64,000 bases of DNA from Neorhizobium huautlense. Lineage in GTDB: Bacteria; Pseudomonadota; Alphaproteobacteria; Rhizobiales; Rhizobiaceae. The position numbers were made by a program, and so were the translations under genes. The DNA lies in the NCBI RefSeq assembly GCF_002968575.1, contig NZ_PVBM01000005.1, forward strand, positions 62,001-126,000. The letters run 5' to 3'. The notes under the pieces were generated by a model that saw nothing but the letters and a program-made list of their open reading frames with translations, was not told the DNA's origin and did not search any database. Below, one piece after another: positions 7,960 to 59,671 of the stretch. Position 1 is the first letter of the stretch; every line of letters begins with the position of its first letter.

Positions 7960-9063
7960 TTACTTGGCGAGCCGGCCGTCGACGAGGGAGTCGGAGAGCG
8001 GCGCCGGGCGCACCACGGCGGTGGTGATTTCGATCGTTCGGGCGGTTTCGGCGGCGGTATGGAACGCTTCCATGACCTCCAGCACATGCAGCGCCAGATC
8101 GCCGTTGGCGCGATGTGCCCGGTTGGAGCGGATCGCGTGGGCCATGTCCGCCACCCCGATCGACCGATAGTTGCCGTCCGCATAGGGCATGGTCACGGGT
8201 TGATCTTCGAACTGGCCACCCTTCTTGAGGTACTCGACCGGGCCGCCGAAACGGTTCGGGTCCGGAACGATCAACGTACCTTCCGTGCCGTAGACCTCGA
8301 GCGGCACATGCTTGTGGCCCGCAACATCGAAGCTCATGCCGATCTGCACGACCGCGCCGTTGGCAAATGCCATGACGCCGGCGACATGCGTGGGCACATG
8401 GACGGGAATGCGCTCGCCGTTGCGGGGTTCGCTGGTTACGATGCGCTCCTTGCGGGGCGTGATTGCGAAGCCTGCGACCTGCGCGACCGGGCCTAGAAGG
8501 TTGACGAGATCGGTGATGTAATAAGGCCCCATATCGAGCATAGGCCCGCCGCCCACTTCGTAATAAAAGGCAGGGTTCGGGTGCCAGCGCTCGTGGCCGG
8601 GGCACATGAAGGTGGCGGTGCCGCCGACTGCGATGCCGATAACACCTTGATCGATCAATGCGCGGGCGGTCTGGTGACCACCGCCCAGGAAGGTATCGGG
8701 AGCGGCGCCGATGCGCAGGCATTTCGCCTTCGCCACCTCCGCCAGTTTTTTCCCCTCGGCGAAATTAATCCCGAGCGGCTTTTCCGAATAGGTGTGCTTT
8801 CCCGCGTCGAGCGCCTGCAGACCGACCGCCACATGCGCTTTCGGAACAGTCAGATTGACGATGATCTCCACCGTCGGATCGCCAAGCAATTCGTCTACCG
8901 TTCTCGCCGGCAGACCGAACTCGGAGGCCTTGGCCTCGGCCAGCTCGCGGTTGAGGTCGGCCAAGCCGCGAATGTCGAGAATGGGAAAGTCAGCGGTCAT
9001 CGCCTTCAGATAGGCGCCTGAAATATTGCCGCATCCGATGATGCCGATGCCGACCTTGTTCAT
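7960..9063 (-). CDS. Gfo/Idh/MocA-family sugar oxidoreductase
   Basis: A 367-residue NAD(P)-dependent dehydrogenase with an N-terminal Rossmann domain (GIIGCGNISGAYLKA, residues ~6-20) and the family EKPLGINFAEG motif with the catalytic lysine near residue 95. The C-terminal alpha/beta domain carries GGGPMLDMGPYYITDL. The start at 9063 has GGGAGGAGGA immediately upstream. It pairs with the ThuA-like gene and would oxidise a sugar or glycoside hydroxyl (often C3) to a keto group. Regulated presumably by the ROK protein encoded next to it. Confidence 0.82.
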   Translation of the reverse strand: MNKVGIGIIGCGNISGAYLKAMTADFPILDIRGLADLNRELAEAKASEFGLPARTVDELLGDPTVEIIVNLTVPKAHVAVGLQALDAGKHTYSEKPLGINFAEGKKLAEVAKAKCLRIGAAPDTFLGGGHQTARALIDQGVIGIAVGGTATFMCPGHERWHPNPAFYYEVGGGPMLDMGPYYITDLVNLLGPVAQVAGFAITPRKERIVTSEPRNGERIPVHVPTHVAGVMAFANGAVVQIGMSFDVAGHKHVPLEVYGTEGTLIVPDPNRFGGPVEYLKKGGQFEDQPVTMPYADGNYRSIGVADMAHAIRSNRAHRANGDLALHVLEVMEAFHTAAETARTIEITTAVVRPAPLSDSLVDGRLAK

Positions 9064-53178: not shown

Positions 53179-53733
53179 ATGGAACAGGATCCGGTTCAAG
53201 CGATCGCGAAAAGATTGAAAATGGAGCGGGAGGCCCGCGCCTGGTCATTGGCCGAGCTGGCGGAGCGTTCCGGGGTCTCCAAAGCGATGATCAGCAAGAT
53301 CGAACGCAGTGAGGCAAGTCCGACCGCCACGGTGCTTGGCCGGCTTTCCGGCGCCTTCGGCTTGCCGCTTTCGGTGTTGCTGGCGCTCGCGGAAAGGGAA
53401 CGGGAGCGGATGGCTCCGCATCGCGAGCAGCCGGTCTGGACCGATCCCGAGACGGGTTATACGCGCCGGGCAGTTTCGCCGCCGAACTCGATGCTTGAGC
53501 TGATCGAAGTGTTCTTGCCTCCCCATGTACGAGTGCCTTACCCGGCATCGGCCTTCGCCTTCCAGCATCAGCAGATCTGGGTTCTTTCCGGAAAGCTCGA
53601 TTTCCAGGAAGGGGCAGTGCTGCATCATCTCTCGGAGGGTGATTGCCTGCTTCTCGGATCGCCGGCCGATTGCTCCTTCTTTAACCCCGGAACCGAACCC
53701 ACCCGCTATGTCGTGGCGCTGACGCGCCGTTAG
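53179..53733 (+). CDS. XRE-family regulator with C-terminal cupin domain
   Basis: A 184-residue regulator: helix-turn-helix in residues ~8-62 (LAELAERSGVSKAMISKIERSEASPTATVLGRL read in two parts) and a cupin fold in ~95-184 (WVLSGKLDFQEGAVLHHLSEGDCLLLG). XRE-cupin proteins usually sense a small molecule and repress a neighbouring transport or catabolic operon. Here that is the divergent monooxygenase-MFS pair. Confidence 0.86.
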   Translation: MEQDPVQAIAKRLKMEREARAWSLAELAERSGVSKAMISKIERSEASPTATVLGRLSGAFGLPLSVLLALAERERERMAPHREQPVWTDPETGYTRRAVSPPNSMLELIEVFLPPHVRVPYPASAFAFQHQQIWVLSGKLDFQEGAVLHHLSEGDCLLLGSPADCSFFNPGTEPTRYVVALTRR

Positions 53734-53784: not shown

Positions 53785-53819
53785 CGAAAGAAAGAGGCGC
53801 CTCCCGCGGGGGAGGCGCC
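53785..53819 (-). terminator. Intrinsic terminator of the candidate small RNA
   Basis: A perfect 10-bp stem (GGCGCCTCCC with GGGAGGCGCC, loop 53806-53809) is followed on the minus strand by TCTTTCTTTC. On the plus strand no T-run follows, so it does not serve the XRE gene well. Confidence 0.7.
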
Positions 53820-53873
53820 AAGTGGGGAGGGTACTTATGACGCTGTCGGCCGCGTGGAGGTTCGGCGCCCGAC
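53785..53873 (-). ncRNA. Candidate stress-induced small RNA, GsrN-like architecture
   Basis: About 90 nt on the minus strand with three hairpins. Hairpin 1 pairs CUGUCGG (53875-53869) with CCGACAG (53849-53843) and has the loop CGAACCUCCAC (53864-53854). Hairpin 2 pairs AAGU (53836-53833) with ACUU (53823-53820) and exposes ACCCUCCCC. Hairpin 3 is the intrinsic terminator (53819-53796) followed by UCUUUCUUUC. A GGAAC-N17-GTT promoter (53906-53882) predicts a start at about 53870-53876, right at hairpin 1. C-rich loops that pair with Shine-Dalgarno sites, a GSR promoter and a terminator are what is described for GsrN. No protein is likely in this strand. Confidence 0.6.
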
Positions 53874-53881
53874 AGGCCATG

Positions 53882-53906
53882 AACACGTAATCGTGAGTTT
53901 TGTTCC
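53882..53906 (-). promoter_or_regulatory. GSR-type promoter of the candidate small RNA
   Basis: On the minus strand GGAAC (53906-53902), 17 bases, GTT (53884-53882). It points away from the small stress genes into a gene-free stretch that holds the three-hairpin RNA. Confidence 0.65.
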
Positions 53907-53937
53907 GCCGATTTTTCAATCGCCCTTTGCGCGGAAC
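53902..53937. repeat. Inverted repeat joining two divergent GSR -35 boxes
   Basis: GTTCCGC (53902-53908) and GCGGAAC (53931-53937) are exact reverse complements; inside them CGATT (53909-53913) pairs with AATCG (53918-53922). The outer arms are themselves the -35 elements of the leftward and rightward GSR promoters, so the symmetry arises at least partly from the paired promoter layout. Confidence 0.6.
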
Positions 53938-53957
53938 AATCCTCAAGGGCATCGGTT
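53933..53957 (+). promoter_or_regulatory. GSR-type promoter of the small stress gene series
   Basis: GGAAC (53933-53937), 17 bases, GTT (53955-53957) followed by TTG. Predicted start about 53968, leaving a 20-base leader with CAGGGAGAAG before the ATG at 53988. Confidence 0.75.
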
Positions 53958-53987
53958 TTGCACTGAGAAGACAGGGAGAAGAACACT

Positions 53988-54257
53988 ATGAGCAAAGCCG
54001 TAGAAACCACCAGCCACAAGGAAATCCGGCAGTGGATCGAGGAACGCGGCGGTCACCCGGCCCGCGTGAAAGGCGCCGAGGAGGGCGGTATCCTGCGTGT
54101 CGATTTCGGTAAGCCGGAAGAGTCCCTGGAGGAAATCGCATGGGAGGATTTCTTCTCGATCTTCGACGAGAACAAGCTCGCCTTCCTCTACCAGGAAGAA
54201 ACGGAAGCGGGCAAAACCAGCCGTTTCAACAAGTTTGTCTCTCGCACGAAGCACTGA
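53988..54257 (+). CDS. Small hypothetical stress-regulated protein (89 residues)
   Basis: An 89-residue acidic protein, probably compactly folded: EIRQWIEERGGHPARVKGAE, GGILRVDFGKPEESLEEIAW and FFSIFDENKLAFLYQEET. The pattern (helix, then a strand-rich core) is found in many rhizobial hypothetical proteins that are sometimes labelled as glucan-branching-enzyme-like, without evidence of such activity. It is the first of three small genes behind a GSR promoter, with GGGAGAAG as ribosome site. Confidence 0.82.
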   Translation: MSKAVETTSHKEIRQWIEERGGHPARVKGAEEGGILRVDFGKPEESLEEIAWEDFFSIFDENKLAFLYQEETEAGKTSRFNKFVSRTKH

Positions 54258-54305
54258 CGGTCTGCAGCTCAAATGCTGCGGCTGATTGCCCGAAAGGAGC
54301 ACGAT

Positions 54306-54506
54306 ATGTCCAAGCACTTCAAGACCGTTCGGCCAAGTGACGCCGATCTCAAAGCCGACCCCGGTATCGGCCAGTCGAAAGGGCTGAACCGTTTCGACGG
54401 CAATGACGAAATCATCGGGGAAAACACCGACGAGGGCGATGTCGGCAACGACACCAACCGTTTCGGCGGCGTCGACCCCAATCAGCGCGGTCGCGCCAAC
54501 AAATAG
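54306..54506 (+). CDS. Small hydrophilic hypothetical protein (66 residues)
   Basis: A 66-residue protein rich in D, N and G, with no cysteine or tryptophan (DADLKADPGIGQSKGLNRF, NDTNRFGGVDPNQRGRANK). It is probably disordered, resembling hydrophilin-type stress proteins. The start at 54306 is supported by AAGGAGC; a longer frame from 54273 lacks a site. It is 48 bp after the 89-residue gene and likely on the same transcript. Confidence 0.72.
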   Translation: MSKHFKTVRPSDADLKADPGIGQSKGLNRFDGNDEIIGENTDEGDVGNDTNRFGGVDPNQRGRANK

Positions 54507-54527
54507 CGAGGTCAGGAGGAACCGACC

Positions 54528-54770
54528 ATGCAAGGCAACAAGACCCACCAGCAGCAGCGGGATATCCTTCAAAAGGGCGTCAATACCGCGAATGCGGGCA
54601 AGGATTTCGATCCCAAGGCAGACCTGAATCGCAGTGACGCAGCCCGCGAGGCCTTTCGAAAAGGTGACAATCTGGACATGCGGGCGGCGGATGTTTCGAT
54701 GAAGGATGATCCTGCCATTATCCGCGGCCGCAACCAGGAAAGCGAACACCACAAGGGTAGCGGCTCCTGA
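54528..54770 (+). CDS. Small hydrophilic hypothetical protein (80 residues)
   Basis: An 80-residue charged protein (KTHQQQRDILQKGVNTANAG, ADLNRSDAAREAFRKGDN, ending EHHKGSGS) without hydrophobic core or cysteine. AGGAGGAACC precedes the ATG. Third gene of the likely stress operon 53988-54770. Function unknown. Confidence 0.75.
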   Translation: MQGNKTHQQQRDILQKGVNTANAGKDFDPKADLNRSDAAREAFRKGDNLDMRAADVSMKDDPAIIRGRNQESEHHKGSGS

Positions 54771-54782
54771 CTTTCAGTGAAT

Positions 54783-54807
54783 GGAACCGAACGACAATCC
54801 CGGTGTT
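54783..54807 (+). promoter_or_regulatory. GSR-type promoter before the phosphoribosyltransferase gene
   Basis: GGAAC (54783-54787), 17 bases, GTT (54805-54807). It lies just after the stop of the 80-residue gene and about 90 bases before the next start, so the leader would be near 80 bases. Confidence 0.6.
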
Positions 54808-54896
54808 GTCCGACGCCGCCCGGTGTTATGATGACATAGGGTTGGAGGAAGCGACGGCGCGGCTGGTGGCCGCGCCACATGTGGTGGGAGGATAAC

Positions 54897-55577
54897 ATGT
54901 TCGGTTCAGGCGCAACTTTTTCCGATCGCGAGGATGCCGGCAGGCAGCTAGCGGAAGCGATGAAGGGGATGCCGCTACGCGCTCCCGTCGTCATGGCACT
55001 GCCCCGCGGCGGCGTGCCCGTGGCCTTCGAGATCGCTCAAAGGCTCGGAGCACCCCTCGATCTCCTGATCGTCCGCAGGATCGCAGCTCCCGGTCATCCC
55101 GAATACGGCATAGGCGCCGTGGTGGACGGCAAGGAACCTTATGTCGTGGTCAACGAGGAGGCAGCCCGGCATTTCCAGATCCCACCGGGTTATCTGGTGA
55201 GCGAAAAAGACCATCAGCTCGCCGAAATCGAGCGTCGTCATCGGATCTATTTCGGCGAAGACGAACCGGAGGATCACGACCATGCGGGTCAAGACGTCAT
55301 TCTGGTCGATGACGGCATTGCCAACGGAGGCTCCATCCGAGCCGGCATCCATGCGCTGAAAGAGATGGGCGTGCGTTCCATCCGGGTCGCCGTGCCGGTT
55401 GCCCCGCGGGCTTTTCTGGAAATCTTGCGCGATGAGGTCGACGAGATCATCTGCCTGTCGACCCCGGAACATCTCGATGCGGTCAGGCGCTATTACCAGG
55501 ATTTCACCGAAACCACCGATCAGGACGTCGTGCGCCTCTTGAAGGATGCCCGGCGGCTGACGCGGATGATCCATTGA
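54897..55577 (+). CDS. Phosphoribosyltransferase-domain protein
   Basis: A 226-residue protein with a type I phosphoribosyltransferase fold. The N-terminal MALPRGGVPVAFEIAQRLGAPLDLLIVRRI and PEYGIGAVVDG are typical, and the PRPP loop reads ILVDDGIANGGSIRAG around residue 140. In this subfamily the true substrate is unknown. ATG at 54897 follows GGGAGGA; an earlier frame at 54879 lacks a site. Preceded by a GSR-type promoter. Confidence 0.82.
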   Translation: MFGSGATFSDREDAGRQLAEAMKGMPLRAPVVMALPRGGVPVAFEIAQRLGAPLDLLIVRRIAAPGHPEYGIGAVVDGKEPYVVVNEEAARHFQIPPGYLVSEKDHQLAEIERRHRIYFGEDEPEDHDHAGQDVILVDDGIANGGSIRAGIHALKEMGVRSIRVAVPVAPRAFLEILRDEVDEIICLSTPEHLDAVRRYYQDFTETTDQDVVRLLKDARRLTRMIH

Positions 55578-55580
55578 GGG

Positions 55581-56333
55581 TCATATCTCGACCGTCGTCA
55601 GCAGAGGCAGGTGATCGGAGGCGCGGCGGGCAAGCGGCGCCGAGATAACCTGCGTCTCCACGGGCTTGACCTCCTGGGAGACGAATATGTGATCGATCCT
55701 CAACAGCGGATAGCGCGACGGGAATGTAGCCTTAGGTTTCGCCCCGGATCCAACCTGCACATCCGCCAGGCGGCGCGCTGCAGCCTTATAGGTGGCGGTG
55801 GACGGTATTGCATTGAAATCTCCCATCAGGATCACCGGCCTGTTATGGCAGGCCGAGTTGCCGAGCCATGAGGGCCCCAAAAGGGTGTTGATCTGCCGGA
55901 TGCGTTCGCGTCCGCGCAGGCCGAGATGGGTGTTGAAGACCTGCAGGCGGTGATCGCCCAGCGCAATTTCGACCCAGACTGCGCCGCGTTGCTCGCCGAT
56001 CGATGGAAGGCCGGCGCCCTTTATCGTTGTTGCCGGCAGGGCTGTCAGGATGGCGTCGCCATACCGCTCTTCCGCGACGCTGAGGGCGGCATGGAAGTGG
56101 TACTCCATCTGCAGCAGGGAAGCGATCGCGTGGGCCTGGTCGACACCGCCGGTGCGAACGCGGCCGACATCCAGCTCCTGCAGTCCGATGATATCCGGCT
56201 CTGCCGCAGCAATGACCTCCGCGATCCGCGCCGGATCAAGCCTGCGGTCGGTGCCGATGCAGCTGTGAACGTTGTAACTGAGGATTTTTAGGCGACGCCT
56301 GCGGGAAGGTGAAGGAGTTGTTCGATCGTTCAT
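55581..56333 (-). CDS. Endonuclease/exonuclease/phosphatase-family protein
   Basis: A 250-residue DNase I-like fold protein. Motifs: LKILSYNVHSCIG at the N-terminus, DIIGLQELDVGRVR with the metal-binding E, VFNTHLGLRG, ILMGDFNAIP and the final LARRASDHLPLLTTVEI with the catalytic histidine. Members cleave DNA or phosphodiesters of lipids. Start at 56333 coincides with the transcript start predicted from the minus-strand GSR promoter, so the mRNA may be leaderless. The gene shares an overlapping promoter with the UPF0104 gene and is near a phospholipase D gene. Confidence 0.85.
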   Translation of the reverse strand: MNDRTTPSPSRRRRLKILSYNVHSCIGTDRRLDPARIAEVIAAAEPDIIGLQELDVGRVRTGGVDQAHAIASLLQMEYHFHAALSVAEERYGDAILTALPATTIKGAGLPSIGEQRGAVWVEIALGDHRLQVFNTHLGLRGRERIRQINTLLGPSWLGNSACHNRPVILMGDFNAIPSTATYKAAARRLADVQVGSGAKPKATFPSRYPLLRIDHIFVSQEVKPVETQVISAPLARRASDHLPLLTTVEI

Positions 56334-56340
56334 AGCGCTG

Positions 56341-56366
56341 GGAACACCTTTACCTAAGTTTTCGTT
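56341..56366 (+). promoter_or_regulatory. GSR-type promoter of the UPF0104 gene
   Basis: GGAAC (56341-56345), 18 bases, GTT (56364-56366). Predicted start about 56376, leaving a 23-base leader with GGGAGG before the ATG at 56399. Confidence 0.7.
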
Positions 56367-56368
56367 CC
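56343..56368 (-). promoter_or_regulatory. GSR-type promoter of the EEP gene, overlapping the opposite one
   Basis: On the minus strand GGAAC (56368-56364), 18 bases, GTT (56345-56343). It reuses the other promoter's -10 region as its -35. Predicted start falls at about 56333, the A of the start codon. Confidence 0.65.
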
Positions 56369-56398
56369 CGATGTCGGAGAACCGCAACGGGAGGATTT

Positions 56399-57337
56399 AT
56401 GCCTGCGAAACGCCATCTGCTGAAGCTCTTAATCGGTGCAGCAATCTGCGTGGCGGTCTTCCTGCTTTACCGAAGCCTTGGTCGCTACACTCTCGACGAG
56501 ATCGAGGAGTCGCTTCAGGCGATTATCGGCATCCGACTGATGAGCGCCTTTTTCTTCGTCATCCTCTCCTATTTGTGCCTTACCGGCTTCGATACGCTCG
56601 CTGTCGCCTACACGGGCCGCAGGCTTTTATATCGGCAGACTGCGCTCGCCTCCTTCACTGCTCTGTCCATCGGGCACAATGTCGGGCTGGCGGCCCTGAG
56701 CAGCGGCGCGGTGCGCTATCGGTTCTATTCGCGCTGGGGGTTGACCGCCGAAGATGTGGCGAAGGTCATCATCTTCTGCGGTATCACCGTGGGGCTCGGG
56801 CTCGCCACCCTTGCCGGCCTGGCACTTCTGCTGCAGCCCCCGGAAACGGACCTGTTCCGGCTGGATGGATGGGTGAAAGGAGCCGTCGGGATGTTGTGTC
56901 TGGCGCTTCCGTCCGCCTATCTGCTGGTATGTGCCTTCGTGCACCGGCCCCTCCATCTGAAAACATGGAGATTCCAACCGCCGCCGCTGAAGCTGGCGCT
57001 GGGCCAGATTCTCATCGGCACCCTCAACTTCGCCTCCGTCGCGGCAGCTATTCATCAGCTTCTCGCGAGCTTCACCGATACCGGCTATCTTGCCGTGGCG
57101 ACGACCTATGTCACAGCCAACATCGCCGCTCTGATCAGCCATGTGCCCGGCGGACTCGGCGTACTGGAAGCCACCATGCTGAGCATTCTGCCTTCGACGG
57201 CCTCCATCGGGGCTCTCATCGCCTTCCGGGTGCTTTACTTTTTCGTGCCGCTGGGGATCGGGATCCCGACCTTGCTAGTGACCGAAGCCTATTATCGGCA
57301 TCGCGCTGGAAGGCTGTCAGAGCAGACGGTGGTGTGA
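56399..57337 (+). CDS. UPF0104 / lysylphosphatidylglycerol synthase-type membrane protein
   Basis: A 312-residue integral membrane protein of the flippase-like UPF0104/LPG_synthase_TM family with about eight membrane helices. N-terminal LIGAAICVAVFLLYRSLGR and ALSIGHNVGLAALSSGAVRYRFYSRWGL are characteristic, as is HVPGGLGVLEATMLSILP. It may move or modify phospholipids. GGGAGG precedes the start. Its 3' end overlaps the convergent phospholipase D gene by 21 bp. Confidence 0.85.
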   Translation: MPAKRHLLKLLIGAAICVAVFLLYRSLGRYTLDEIEESLQAIIGIRLMSAFFFVILSYLCLTGFDTLAVAYTGRRLLYRQTALASFTALSIGHNVGLAALSSGAVRYRFYSRWGLTAEDVAKVIIFCGITVGLGLATLAGLALLLQPPETDLFRLDGWVKGAVGMLCLALPSAYLLVCAFVHRPLHLKTWRFQPPPLKLALGQILIGTLNFASVAAAIHQLLASFTDTGYLAVATTYVTANIAALISHVPGGLGVLEATMLSILPSTASIGALIAFRVLYFFVPLGIGIPTLLVTEAYYRHRAGRLSEQTVV

Positions 57338-58822
57338 GAGGCGGAGGAAAAGGCGGCGCAGAGCATTTTTGATTTCCGGAATCGGCCAGAAGGGCTGTTT
57401 GGGATCGATGATTCCGGTGCCAACCAGAGACTGCGTTTCACCCTTTTCAGGATTGACGTCGAACGGCCTGAGGCCGCGCGGCTTGACGTTGAGCCGGTCG
57501 ACAGAACGCACCATCGACCCAGTTTCCTCGATGAGGCGCGCCACTTCTGCCGGCTCCGCATCCAGATGTTCGGCAAGAAGGTCGTTGCGCAGCGCGTTGA
57601 CGGCCGTCTGGCCCGCCGGGTCATAGGTCTCTATGGCCAGGTCACACTCGGTATCGAGGCCCTCCGAACGGTTGTTCAGATTGGAGGAGCCCACACGAAC
57701 GAAGCAATTATCGACAATGATGACCTTGGAGTGGACGATCACCTCCAGATCGCCCCCCTTGCCGTTGGGCACCACGGCATAAAAGACCCGCAGGCGGCCA
57801 TAACGGTCCGCACGCTTGAGGCGGCGGATCAGTCGGTTGCGGTTGTGCCCCATCATCAGCTTTTCCAGGAAGCCATGGGATTCTCGGGTCACGACGACGA
57901 TAATCTCGGGGCCGTCGGCTCTGCGAAGCTGCTTGGCGAGCGTTCGCGCCAAGCCAAAGGAGGCGAGGTACTGCGTCTCGATGTACAGATGGTGCCTGGC
58001 GGCTTTTAGCGCGTCGTGCGTCAACCGGATCGCCTCGCGATGGCCGCGGCGGCCTTTCCATTTCCAGGGTTCGGTGAGTGCAAGGCCGGTATTGCAATGG
58101 GTAAGCGCCGGCTCAAGGTCCGCCGGCCAGGGCTCCTCTCCGGTAATATCCAGGGGCTCCAGAACTTCTCGTGTAGTCTTCCTCCACCGGCGGCGAGCCA
58201 CATCGCCGATCAGCCTGGCAGTGTCGCCGCTGACGATCGTCTGCATGTCGTGGACCGGTCCATAGGGCGTGCCGTCGGCCGATTGCCGCAGTGGATGGTC
58301 TGCCGCATGGCTGCGATCGTCCCAGCGCCGGGCGGTAAGATCGATGCCCCCCAGGAAGGCGGTCTTGTCGTCGATGACGACGATCTTCTGGTGGTGGCTT
58401 GCCCGCAAGGGATGCTCGAAATCGAGATGAACGCGAATGCGCGGATGATCGCTCCAGGTCATCCTGCCAAACATCTTGAGGCTCTTGCTGGAATAGACCG
58501 GGCCCATTCCCCAGACGAGGATACGGACCTGCAGCGCCGGCTTTTCCTCGACAAGTCTGCGAAGCAGTTCCCCCAGCGTCTCTTCATCTCCTTCTCGGAC
58601 TTTCAGACGAATGTCCGGGTTGAAGTCCCAGCCGACGATGGAGATTGAGCGTTCCGCCTGCCGAAGCACTTGGTCGAGCCGGAGAAAATACTCCTCTCCG
58701 TCGACGAGGAAAGCGAGTTTCTTCGCTCGCGCGCTGCCCCATGCATTGCGGCCCGGGCGAATGATCGGCTCCGCCTTGGGAACGGTTCGCGTCGTTTGAT
58801 CGGATTGTATTTTCACGTCCAC
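57317..58822 (-). CDS. Phospholipase D-family enzyme (cardiolipin synthase-like)
   Basis: About 501 residues with two HKD motifs: HHQKIVVIDDKTAFLGGID and HSKVIIVDNCFVRVGSSNLNNRS, as in phosphatidyltransferases and phospholipases D. It acts on phosphodiesters at the membrane. I set the start at GTG 58822 (VDVKIQSDQ) because the GSR promoter upstream predicts a transcript start near 58841, which excludes an ATG at 58882; AGGTGG lies five bases before the GTG. A GTG at 58816 is also possible. Confidence 0.82.
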   Translation of the reverse strand: MDVKIQSDQTTRTVPKAEPIIRPGRNAWGSARAKKLAFLVDGEEYFLRLDQVLRQAERSISIVGWDFNPDIRLKVREGDEETLGELLRRLVEEKPALQVRILVWGMGPVYSSKSLKMFGRMTWSDHPRIRVHLDFEHPLRASHHQKIVVIDDKTAFLGGIDLTARRWDDRSHAADHPLRQSADGTPYGPVHDMQTIVSGDTARLIGDVARRRWRKTTREVLEPLDITGEEPWPADLEPALTHCNTGLALTEPWKWKGRRGHREAIRLTHDALKAARHHLYIETQYLASFGLARTLAKQLRRADGPEIIVVVTRESHGFLEKLMMGHNRNRLIRRLKRADRYGRLRVFYAVVPNGKGGDLEVIVHSKVIIVDNCFVRVGSSNLNNRSEGLDTECDLAIETYDPAGQTAVNALRNDLLAEHLDAEPAEVARLIEETGSMVRSVDRLNVKPRGLRPFDVNPEKGETQSLVGTGIIDPKQPFWPIPEIKNALRRLFLRLSHHRLL

Positions 58823-58851
58823 CTGCGCCACCTGATGATTTGGTGACAAGA

Positions 58852-58877
58852 AACGCCGGATTTTTGGCCTTTGTTCC
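58852..58877 (-). promoter_or_regulatory. GSR-type promoter of the phospholipase D-family gene
   Basis: On the minus strand GGAAC (58877-58873), 18 bases, GTT (58854-58852) followed by TC. Predicted start about 58841, with a leader of about 19 bases to GTG 58822. Confidence 0.68.
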
Positions 58878-58910
58878 AACAATCCGGTGGCTGTCGCAGT
58901 CTTGTACCAT

Positions 58911-59075
58911 TTATTTGGTGGTTACAACTCCCGGCGGACGGGGCGCGACAAGTTCGGCGCCTGCATCGCCAAATATTTCGATGGCGGCGATCAGGCCCAG
59001 GAGGATGAGAGCGGCAGCGACCAGTAGCTTCCATAAGCCGGCCTTTACCGGTGTCTGGTGGTGCGTCTGTTTCAT
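58911..59075 (-). CDS. Small single-span membrane protein (54 residues)
   Basis: A 54-residue peptide with one strong hydrophobic helix (GLWKLLVAAALILLGLIAAI) after a short basic, histidine-containing N-terminus (KQTHHQTPVK) and a proline-rich tail. The start at 59075 follows ATCGGGAC; an upstream frame to 59114 has no site. It lies between the phospholipase D and proline-rich genes. Function unknown. Confidence 0.6.
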   Translation of the reverse strand: MKQTHHQTPVKAGLWKLLVAAALILLGLIAAIEIFGDAGAELVAPRPPGVVTTK

Positions 59076-59154
59076 GTCCCGATGGTTCAGGTTGCTATGG
59101 CTTCGAATGTCCATGAGTATCCTTGCGGCGCTCCAGCCGCGCCATTCCCTCGAT

Positions 59155-59331
59155 TCAGGCCAGTCTGCCGGGCGGCATATAAACTGGCGGGTTGGGATTT
59201 TCGTCCGGATTTGGCAGTGGAGATTCGTCCGGCAGGCGATCGGGTTCTGGTTCGTCGATGGGTGGTTCCGGATTCCAAATCGGCGCCGGCATTGGCGGAC
59301 GGTCGCCCGGTTCGCGAGGGTCAGGTGTCAT
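59155..59331 (-). CDS. Small proline-rich stress-regulated protein (58 residues)
   Basis: A 58-residue open frame of which about one third is proline, with repeated PEP, PDE and NP units (MTPDPREPGDRPPMPAPIWN at the start, ending VYMPPGRLA). GGGAG lies eight bases before the ATG and a GGAAC-N17-GTT promoter lies about 17 bases further back, so I accept it as a real gene even though it is very short. Possibly extracytoplasmic or disordered; function unknown. Confidence 0.7.
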   Translation of the reverse strand: MTPDPREPGDRPPMPAPIWNPEPPIDEPEPDRLPDESPLPNPDENPNPPVYMPPGRLA

Positions 59332-59671
59332 TACTACACTCCCTGTTACTCACTGAACAACCGTTCCGCATGAAGATTGTTCCTCGCAAACGACGGCATG
59401 AAAAAACTGCGAGCCATTGGGGGGCAGCCGATCAGAAGCAGCGGGCTGGCGACGAAGATTGCTGCAGCAACACGTCCGGCGTGGCATTTTTAGGTCATGG
59501 TCTTGCCCCTATGCTGTGGAATTATGCCCTTGGACAATTCGCGAACCTGCGCCATGTTTCCTTCGTGCAGGATGGATCCGCGAAGTCCTTTCGGGGATCG
59601 CTGCCCGAGCCCTGATTGTTCAGAGACCCAAAACGTCACTTTCTGGGGGCAATCTTTTGGAGGAGAGGCGA
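59332..59671. other. 340-bp gap between the proline-rich and DUF892 genes
   Basis: The left end holds the leftward GSR promoter (59383-59359). A degenerate rightward version (GGATC, 18 bases, GTT, 59595-59620) lies about 50 bases before the DUF892 start. Elsewhere I see only short open frames without ribosome sites and no convincing RNA structure. Confidence 0.5.
59359..59383 (-). promoter_or_regulatory. GSR-type promoter of the proline-rich gene
   Basis: On the minus strand GGAAC (59383-59379), 17 bases, GTT (59361-59359). Predicted start about 59348 leaves a 17-base leader containing AGGGAG. Confidence 0.68.

Follow-up and report, generated by a model that had tools for sequence, protein, structure and literature searches.

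Does the minus strand downstream of a general-stress promoter motif at one site in the genome of Neorhizobium huautlense encode a small RNA, and if so, how might such an RNA act? In the 64,000-nucleotide stretch of DNA analyzed here (the window), the motif GGAAC-N17-GTT lies on the minus strand at 53882..53906, where the earlier note had read a general stress response (GSR) promoter. It is followed by a small RNA gene at 53786..53876 (minus strand), delimited by its fold, a covariance model and covariation. The predicted start at about 53873-53876 and the T-rich tail at the end give an RNA of roughly 85-91 nt. Its fold energy is -38.2 kcal/mol compared with -27.6 (sd 2.9) for shuffled sequences (z -3.7), and none of 200 shuffles folded as well. 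Promoter, fold, homologues and stem covariation all back the original proposal of an unannotated small RNA, and neither the window nor 19 homologue stretches gave a hit at threshold to any Rfam 15 family. The small RNA looks like a real gene that is novel as a family and of a functional kind already known.

The predicted structure is simpler than first proposed. As anticipated, a 5' hairpin with loop CGAACCUCCAC, which contains ACCUCCAC, forms at 53845..53873 (minus strand) in the minimum-energy and consensus folds and is supported by covariation, and a perfect intrinsic terminator of 10 pairs with tail TCTTTCTTTC forms at 53796..53819 (minus strand), both in the fold and in an alignment of 30 sequences, in which 96.3% of cells are paired. 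Positions 53844-53820 between them are unpaired and include the linker GUCAUAAGUACCCUCCCC (53824..53841, minus strand), the proposed seed, recognized from folds and conservation. A second hairpin, part of the original description, is missing from the minimum-energy fold, the centroid fold and both consensus folds; its 3 pairs show 0 compensatory changes, with 90.5% of cells paired in 14 sequences. Of the two C-rich loops described, the folds bear out just the 5' one; the element common to nearly all homologues is the unpaired linker. The statement that no protein gene occupies the strand also needs correction, as minus-strand ORFs of 235 and 112 aa span the small RNA stretch; both were taken for chance.

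To follow the RNA through the genus, we used a covariance model (R1) made from 19 sequences, with the promoter excluded and a cut-off of E <= 0.001. It matched 25 of 40 genus genomes and left 15 without a match, and a model from 30 sequences (R2) matched the same 25; 12 of the 25 homologues were absent from the alignment used to build the model. In the stems, 96.4% of cells were paired and both sides had changed in 7 of 17 pairs (36 cells), a level reached by 0 of 500 shuffles; the alignment was fitted to the model and so is biased towards structure, and the shuffles leave relatedness in. Free divergence of stem and loop bases had been named beforehand as evidence against the gene: the stems covary, but the loop motif ACCUCC is kept in only 10 of 25 homologues and the second hairpin is unconserved. 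BLAST of the region gave matches in 15 of 60 genomes; 13 were kept as real, L014 and L015 were dropped as short fragments, and no match was found among plasmid records. The core pattern GTCATAARTACCCTCCC occurred in 37 named stretches, 15 of which also carry promoter and terminator (the terminator judged by eye). These comprise Neorhizobium galegae (two), N. alkalisoli, N. petrolearium, N. vignae, N. tomejilense, two other Neorhizobium strains, Rhizobium populisoli, three Rhizobium sp., Pseudorhizobium endolithicum and two 'Rhizobiales bacterium' isolates. The remaining 22, one from Hoeflea included, lacked this combination and were dropped as chance.

The promoter keeps its place across these relatives. 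Every one of the 25 homologues has GGAAC at 25-27 nt upstream of the model start, a position independent of model building because the promoter was left out of the covariance model. GTT follows at N15-19 in 24 of 25, with ATT instead in L154 (23 were counted by script, L154 was read by eye, and L153 and L255 were checked separately). A promoter match alone is not rare, the window holding 12 EcfG-type matches against 5.0 expected in shuffles, so the case for its being real is the fixed position in relatives. Seven of the 12 sites crowd into 53882-59383, where 0.43 would be expected (Poisson P 4e-7); this interval was picked after the sites had been seen, and 2 of the 7 overlap on opposite strands. 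This clustering places the small RNA within an apparent stress-gene island, and with EcfG-type sites before several of its genes the interval is likely to be a general-stress gene island. Two protein genes are frequent neighbors: a divergent gene (53988..54257, plus strand), its 89-aa product lacking a Pfam match, with an EcfG-type motif match in front of it at 53933..53957 (plus strand), and a convergent gene for an HTH-cupin regulator (53179..53733, plus strand). One or the other is present in 21 of 31 fetched homologue stretches, which differ in length. The two overlapping sites, at 56341-56368, form a near-palindromic shared promoter between divergent genes at 55581-56387 (minus strand) and 56399 (plus strand).

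The earlier note had called the RNA GsrN-like. GsrN of Caulobacter crescentus has a general-stress sigma promoter, a length of about 100 nt, a C-rich pairing element and an intrinsic terminator (PMC5869019), and for the RNA described here both the motif and its conservation point to a general stress sigma promoter. As described in the same source, GsrN acts through its 5' C-rich loop and can activate (katG), whereas the conserved element here is the unpaired linker between hairpin and terminator and the RNA would be expected to repress. The extension of GsrN to rhizobia has relied mostly on proximity to ecfG-nepR-phyR, along with an EcfG site and expression data, and the copies predicted in rhizobia are found at the GSR locus (PMC5869019), whereas the present RNA lies elsewhere. 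In this genome ecfG, nepR and phyR occur together, and nepR is 116 kb from the small RNA. Because predictions outside the Caulobacteraceae rest on that closeness, what survives of the GsrN comparison is a loose functional analogy; the published locus context and the conservation of an exposed C-rich 5' loop are both missing.

The RNA might nevertheless be this organism's GsrN, moved off the GSR locus and acting through its 5' C-rich loop, possibly by activating katG-like mRNAs. Its EcfG-type promoter, size and 5' C-rich loop agree with this, and C. crescentus gsrN is itself away from the GSR locus (PMC5869019). We consider it improbable, given that the loop, present in the window, is not the conserved part of the RNA and that the ecfG-nepR-phyR locus, 119 kb from the small RNA, already holds a different RNA that likewise follows an EcfG-type promoter and has two C-rich loops. 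That other RNA lies at 8700-8839 (minus strand) of L054 (G000:C102:226000-240000), downstream of phyR and an HWE kinase gene; its promoter, at 8839-8815 (minus strand), is followed by two C-rich hairpin loops, with a fold z of -4.2. Since it occupies the place described for ReC64 and rhizobial GsrN, it is the positional GsrN candidate of the genome. ReC64 of Rhizobium etli, 88 nt and EcfG-controlled, resembles the window RNA as an EcfG-type small RNA of Rhizobiaceae, but it is located downstream of phyR-tcrY, the spot held here by the other RNA, and is set apart by position (PMC3892343). Matches of our covariance model inside the GSR locus rested on terminators and were set aside. The Rfam model CC1840 scored 16.8 bits; judged by coordinates, CC1840 seems to be another RNA than GsrN.

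The linker is the best-conserved block across 30 aligned sequences and is unpaired in the minimum-energy, centroid and both consensus folds. Its commonest form is GUCAU-AAGUA-CCCUCCCC, and others are GUCAU-AGAA-CCUCCCC, GUCAU-GGAUA-CCUCCCC and GACAU-AAGAA-CCUUCCCC. The spacer varies in letters and length while CAU and C[CU]UCCC stay: C[CU]UCCC is retained in 24 of 25 homologues (the exception is L147), and CAU with the start layout in 22 of 25 (CAU is absent in L144, L147 and L149). The reverse complement of the linker reads as a translation start, GGGGAGGG-UACUU-AUG-AC, that is, a Shine-Dalgarno sequence, 4-5 nt and AUG. Because the linker mirrors a translation start, the small RNA probably blocks protein production from certain mRNAs under stress. 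By sequence and fold, it carries what marks anti-Shine-Dalgarno trans-acting small RNAs, a conserved element that is left unpaired and can pair with ribosome-binding sites by its complementarity. The reading that we favor, with a probability of roughly 0.65, is a trans-acting general-stress small RNA that masks the start regions of certain mRNAs.

A conserved block that mirrors a translation start is, on the plus strand, a good Shine-Dalgarno sequence with an ATG, and here it opens an ORF of 17 codons (53837..53890, plus strand). On this alternative the small ORF would be the functional unit and the minus-strand RNA its antisense regulator, which we regard as very improbable; codon statistics and frame comparison led us to reject the ORF as a gene. 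In the 13 sequences with an intact frame, variable columns number 6/8/6 by codon position, and pairwise codon differences are 419 non-synonymous versus 84 synonymous. Furthermore, the frame is shifted in L005, the ATG is absent in the same three homologues that lack CAU, and the ORF varies in length, with 7 codons at the shortest and at least 70 at the longest.

Masking of start regions has precedents, and anti-Shine-Dalgarno RNAs are well known in rhizobia, including NfeR1, the SmelA075 family and MmgR (PMC10746234, PMC3927594, PMC7143759). Like NfeR1/alpha-r14 and the SmelA075-SmelA099 'cuckoo' RNAs, which carry anti-Shine-Dalgarno motifs blocking translation starts, the RNA described here would act on start regions; those RNAs are described as repeating CCUCCUCCC across three or four hairpins, whereas here there is a single unpaired linker with CAU, and another promoter (PMC10746234, PMC3927594). 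The motif CCUCCUCCC is absent from the window RNA, which has one loop and one linker. NfeR1 targets include transporter mRNAs (PMC10746234). AbcR1 and AbcR2 are likewise rhizobial RNAs that silence transport mRNAs through anti-Shine-Dalgarno pairing; they differ in their promoter, and the present RNA has no Rfam match (PMC8844928, PMC10746234). MmgR/alpha-r8 (suhB, RF00519) shares CCUCCC before the terminator and a 77-nt size class and gives a weak end-to-end model match, but is reported under NtrC control, compared with the EcfG-type promoter here (PMC7143759). That the small RNA is a divergent member of this family earns almost no credence from us: RF00519 does align over its whole model and both have CCUCCC ahead of the terminator, but the score, 19.1 bits (E 0.09), is less than half the gathering score of 41, the first helix is unmatched and the 19 homologue stretches gave nothing at any Rfam threshold. 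In S. meliloti, EcfG-type motifs precede 23 small RNAs, with microarray support in eight (PMC3616915). A literature search, with supplementary tables and most subscription journals outside its scope, yielded no description that we recognized as this RNA.

We searched 20 genomes for the 17-nt complement of the linker with up to 3 mismatches. Near-complementary sites were not enriched (82 versus 90 for the control). Some 12 of the 82 correspond to the RNA gene, and inspection by eye suggests that two groups recurring among the 82 sites fall within coding sequence. Across 48 start regions of the window, with first-ATG guesses as gene starts, the linker bound no better than to coding interiors (p 0.36), and 0 of 200 shuffled linkers showed as strong a preference for starts over interiors as the real one. 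The pattern GGGAGGGTN{2,7}ATG occurred at 12, 10 and 12 sites versus 3, 4 and 1 for the control in three genomes, counts that include the RNA gene itself each time and an excess that natural Shine-Dalgarno sites yield anyway. With specific mRNA target enrichment not found, and with the C-rich motif retained across large divergence, the linker could instead be bait for an RNA-binding protein or another small RNA, or a decoy offering general ribosomal Shine-Dalgarno pairing. We give this some weight and still hold it unlikely, as it leaves unexplained a CAU placed at the 4-5 nt Shine-Dalgarno-to-start distance in 22 of 25 homologues.

For masking of start regions by the linker, several candidate mRNAs can be named. 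Candidate start regions gave duplex energies of -19 to -30 kcal/mol, with shuffle means of -10 to -17; because the candidates were picked by complementarity, these energies are no independent test. One encodes a solute-binding protein (PF01547) at G000:C33:80152, with a counterpart in G015 that is 92% identical; among the listed matches, identity above 38% is found only in G000 and G015 (2 of 20 genomes). In both (L083, G000:C33:80140-80156, and L080 in G015), only two positions of the start region GGGAGGTTACCTATGACG fail to pair with the linker. Other candidates are a second PF01547 protein, its start region being present in G000 and G022; a 70-aa protein, found in 3 of 3 genomes, that matches no Pfam family; and a 208-aa protein in G000, G022 and G027, which of ten tested gives the most stable duplex (-30.4 kcal/mol) and, among the matches listed, has close orthologues in 3 of 40 genomes. 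We take the 208-aa candidate to be an isochorismatase-like hydrolase, whereas the G022 candidate is presumably a transporter-binding-like protein and one G000 candidate presumably an SDR-like protein. No candidate target conserved in all carriers of the small RNA was found. By complementarity, mRNAs of transporter solute-binding proteins are candidate targets.

From the computed gene, promoter motif, structure, conservation and seed layout, we infer EcfG dependence, pairing, silencing and target identity as follows. Stress would free the EcfG sigma factor, which would then transcribe the gene as far as the terminator that it carries, giving an RNA of ~85-91 nt. Between this terminator and the 5' hairpin the linker would stay single-stranded, and it would pair with the start regions of certain mRNAs so that Shine-Dalgarno sequence and start codon are covered together. 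A start region covered in this way would keep the ribosome off, and translation would be silenced. Targets likely include mRNAs of solute-binding proteins of nutrient transporters, and in Neorhizobium-type copies the loop ACCUCC may serve as a second anti-Shine-Dalgarno site. A broader version of this mechanism, which we put forward tentatively and consider doubtful as it stands, is that the seed mirrors an entire translation start, with anti-Shine-Dalgarno and anti-start-codon parts set at the spacing of the ribosome, reads the layout of start regions more than the sequence of any single gene and so silences many mRNAs during the EcfG response. The two-part anti-start seed is the interesting, testable point of this small RNA family. 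In the literature found, no small RNA of the alphaproteobacterial general stress response other than GsrN has had its function worked out; the present family, from soil bacteria that can be cultured, provides a clear hypothesis of a two-part seed.

Scans beyond the genus-level group covered 297 genomes of the family, 397 of the order and stretches around the neighbor gene, and gave no convincing copy; the large scans used stricter filters and genome samples and may miss weak or unsampled copies. The promoter-plus-seed pattern matched 11 of the 397 genomes, two of them real (the organism's own and G027), and the 9 others were dropped; a backward control pattern also matched several genomes. The gene for the 89-aa neighbor occurs in other genera without the small RNA (28 stretches outside the genus), and the covariance model gave 0 matches in the 21 of these that were scanned. 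L209 and L211 had a loose promoter-plus-CCTCC match far from the neighbor gene, judged to be chance. The family is well delimited, with one genus-level group, a fixed promoter place and often the same neighbors. In the family-wide scan R1 matched 6 of 297 genomes, two of which (G181 and G272) lie outside the genus and were dropped, having no promoter. These two weak model matches, L091 (G181) 1501-1605 and L093 (G272) 1501-1585, carry UAAGUAUCCUCCCC or AUAAAGAUCCUCCC ahead of a terminator, have no EcfG promoter and apparently lie downstream of a coding gene; they are perhaps 3'-end-derived RNAs with a similar seed.
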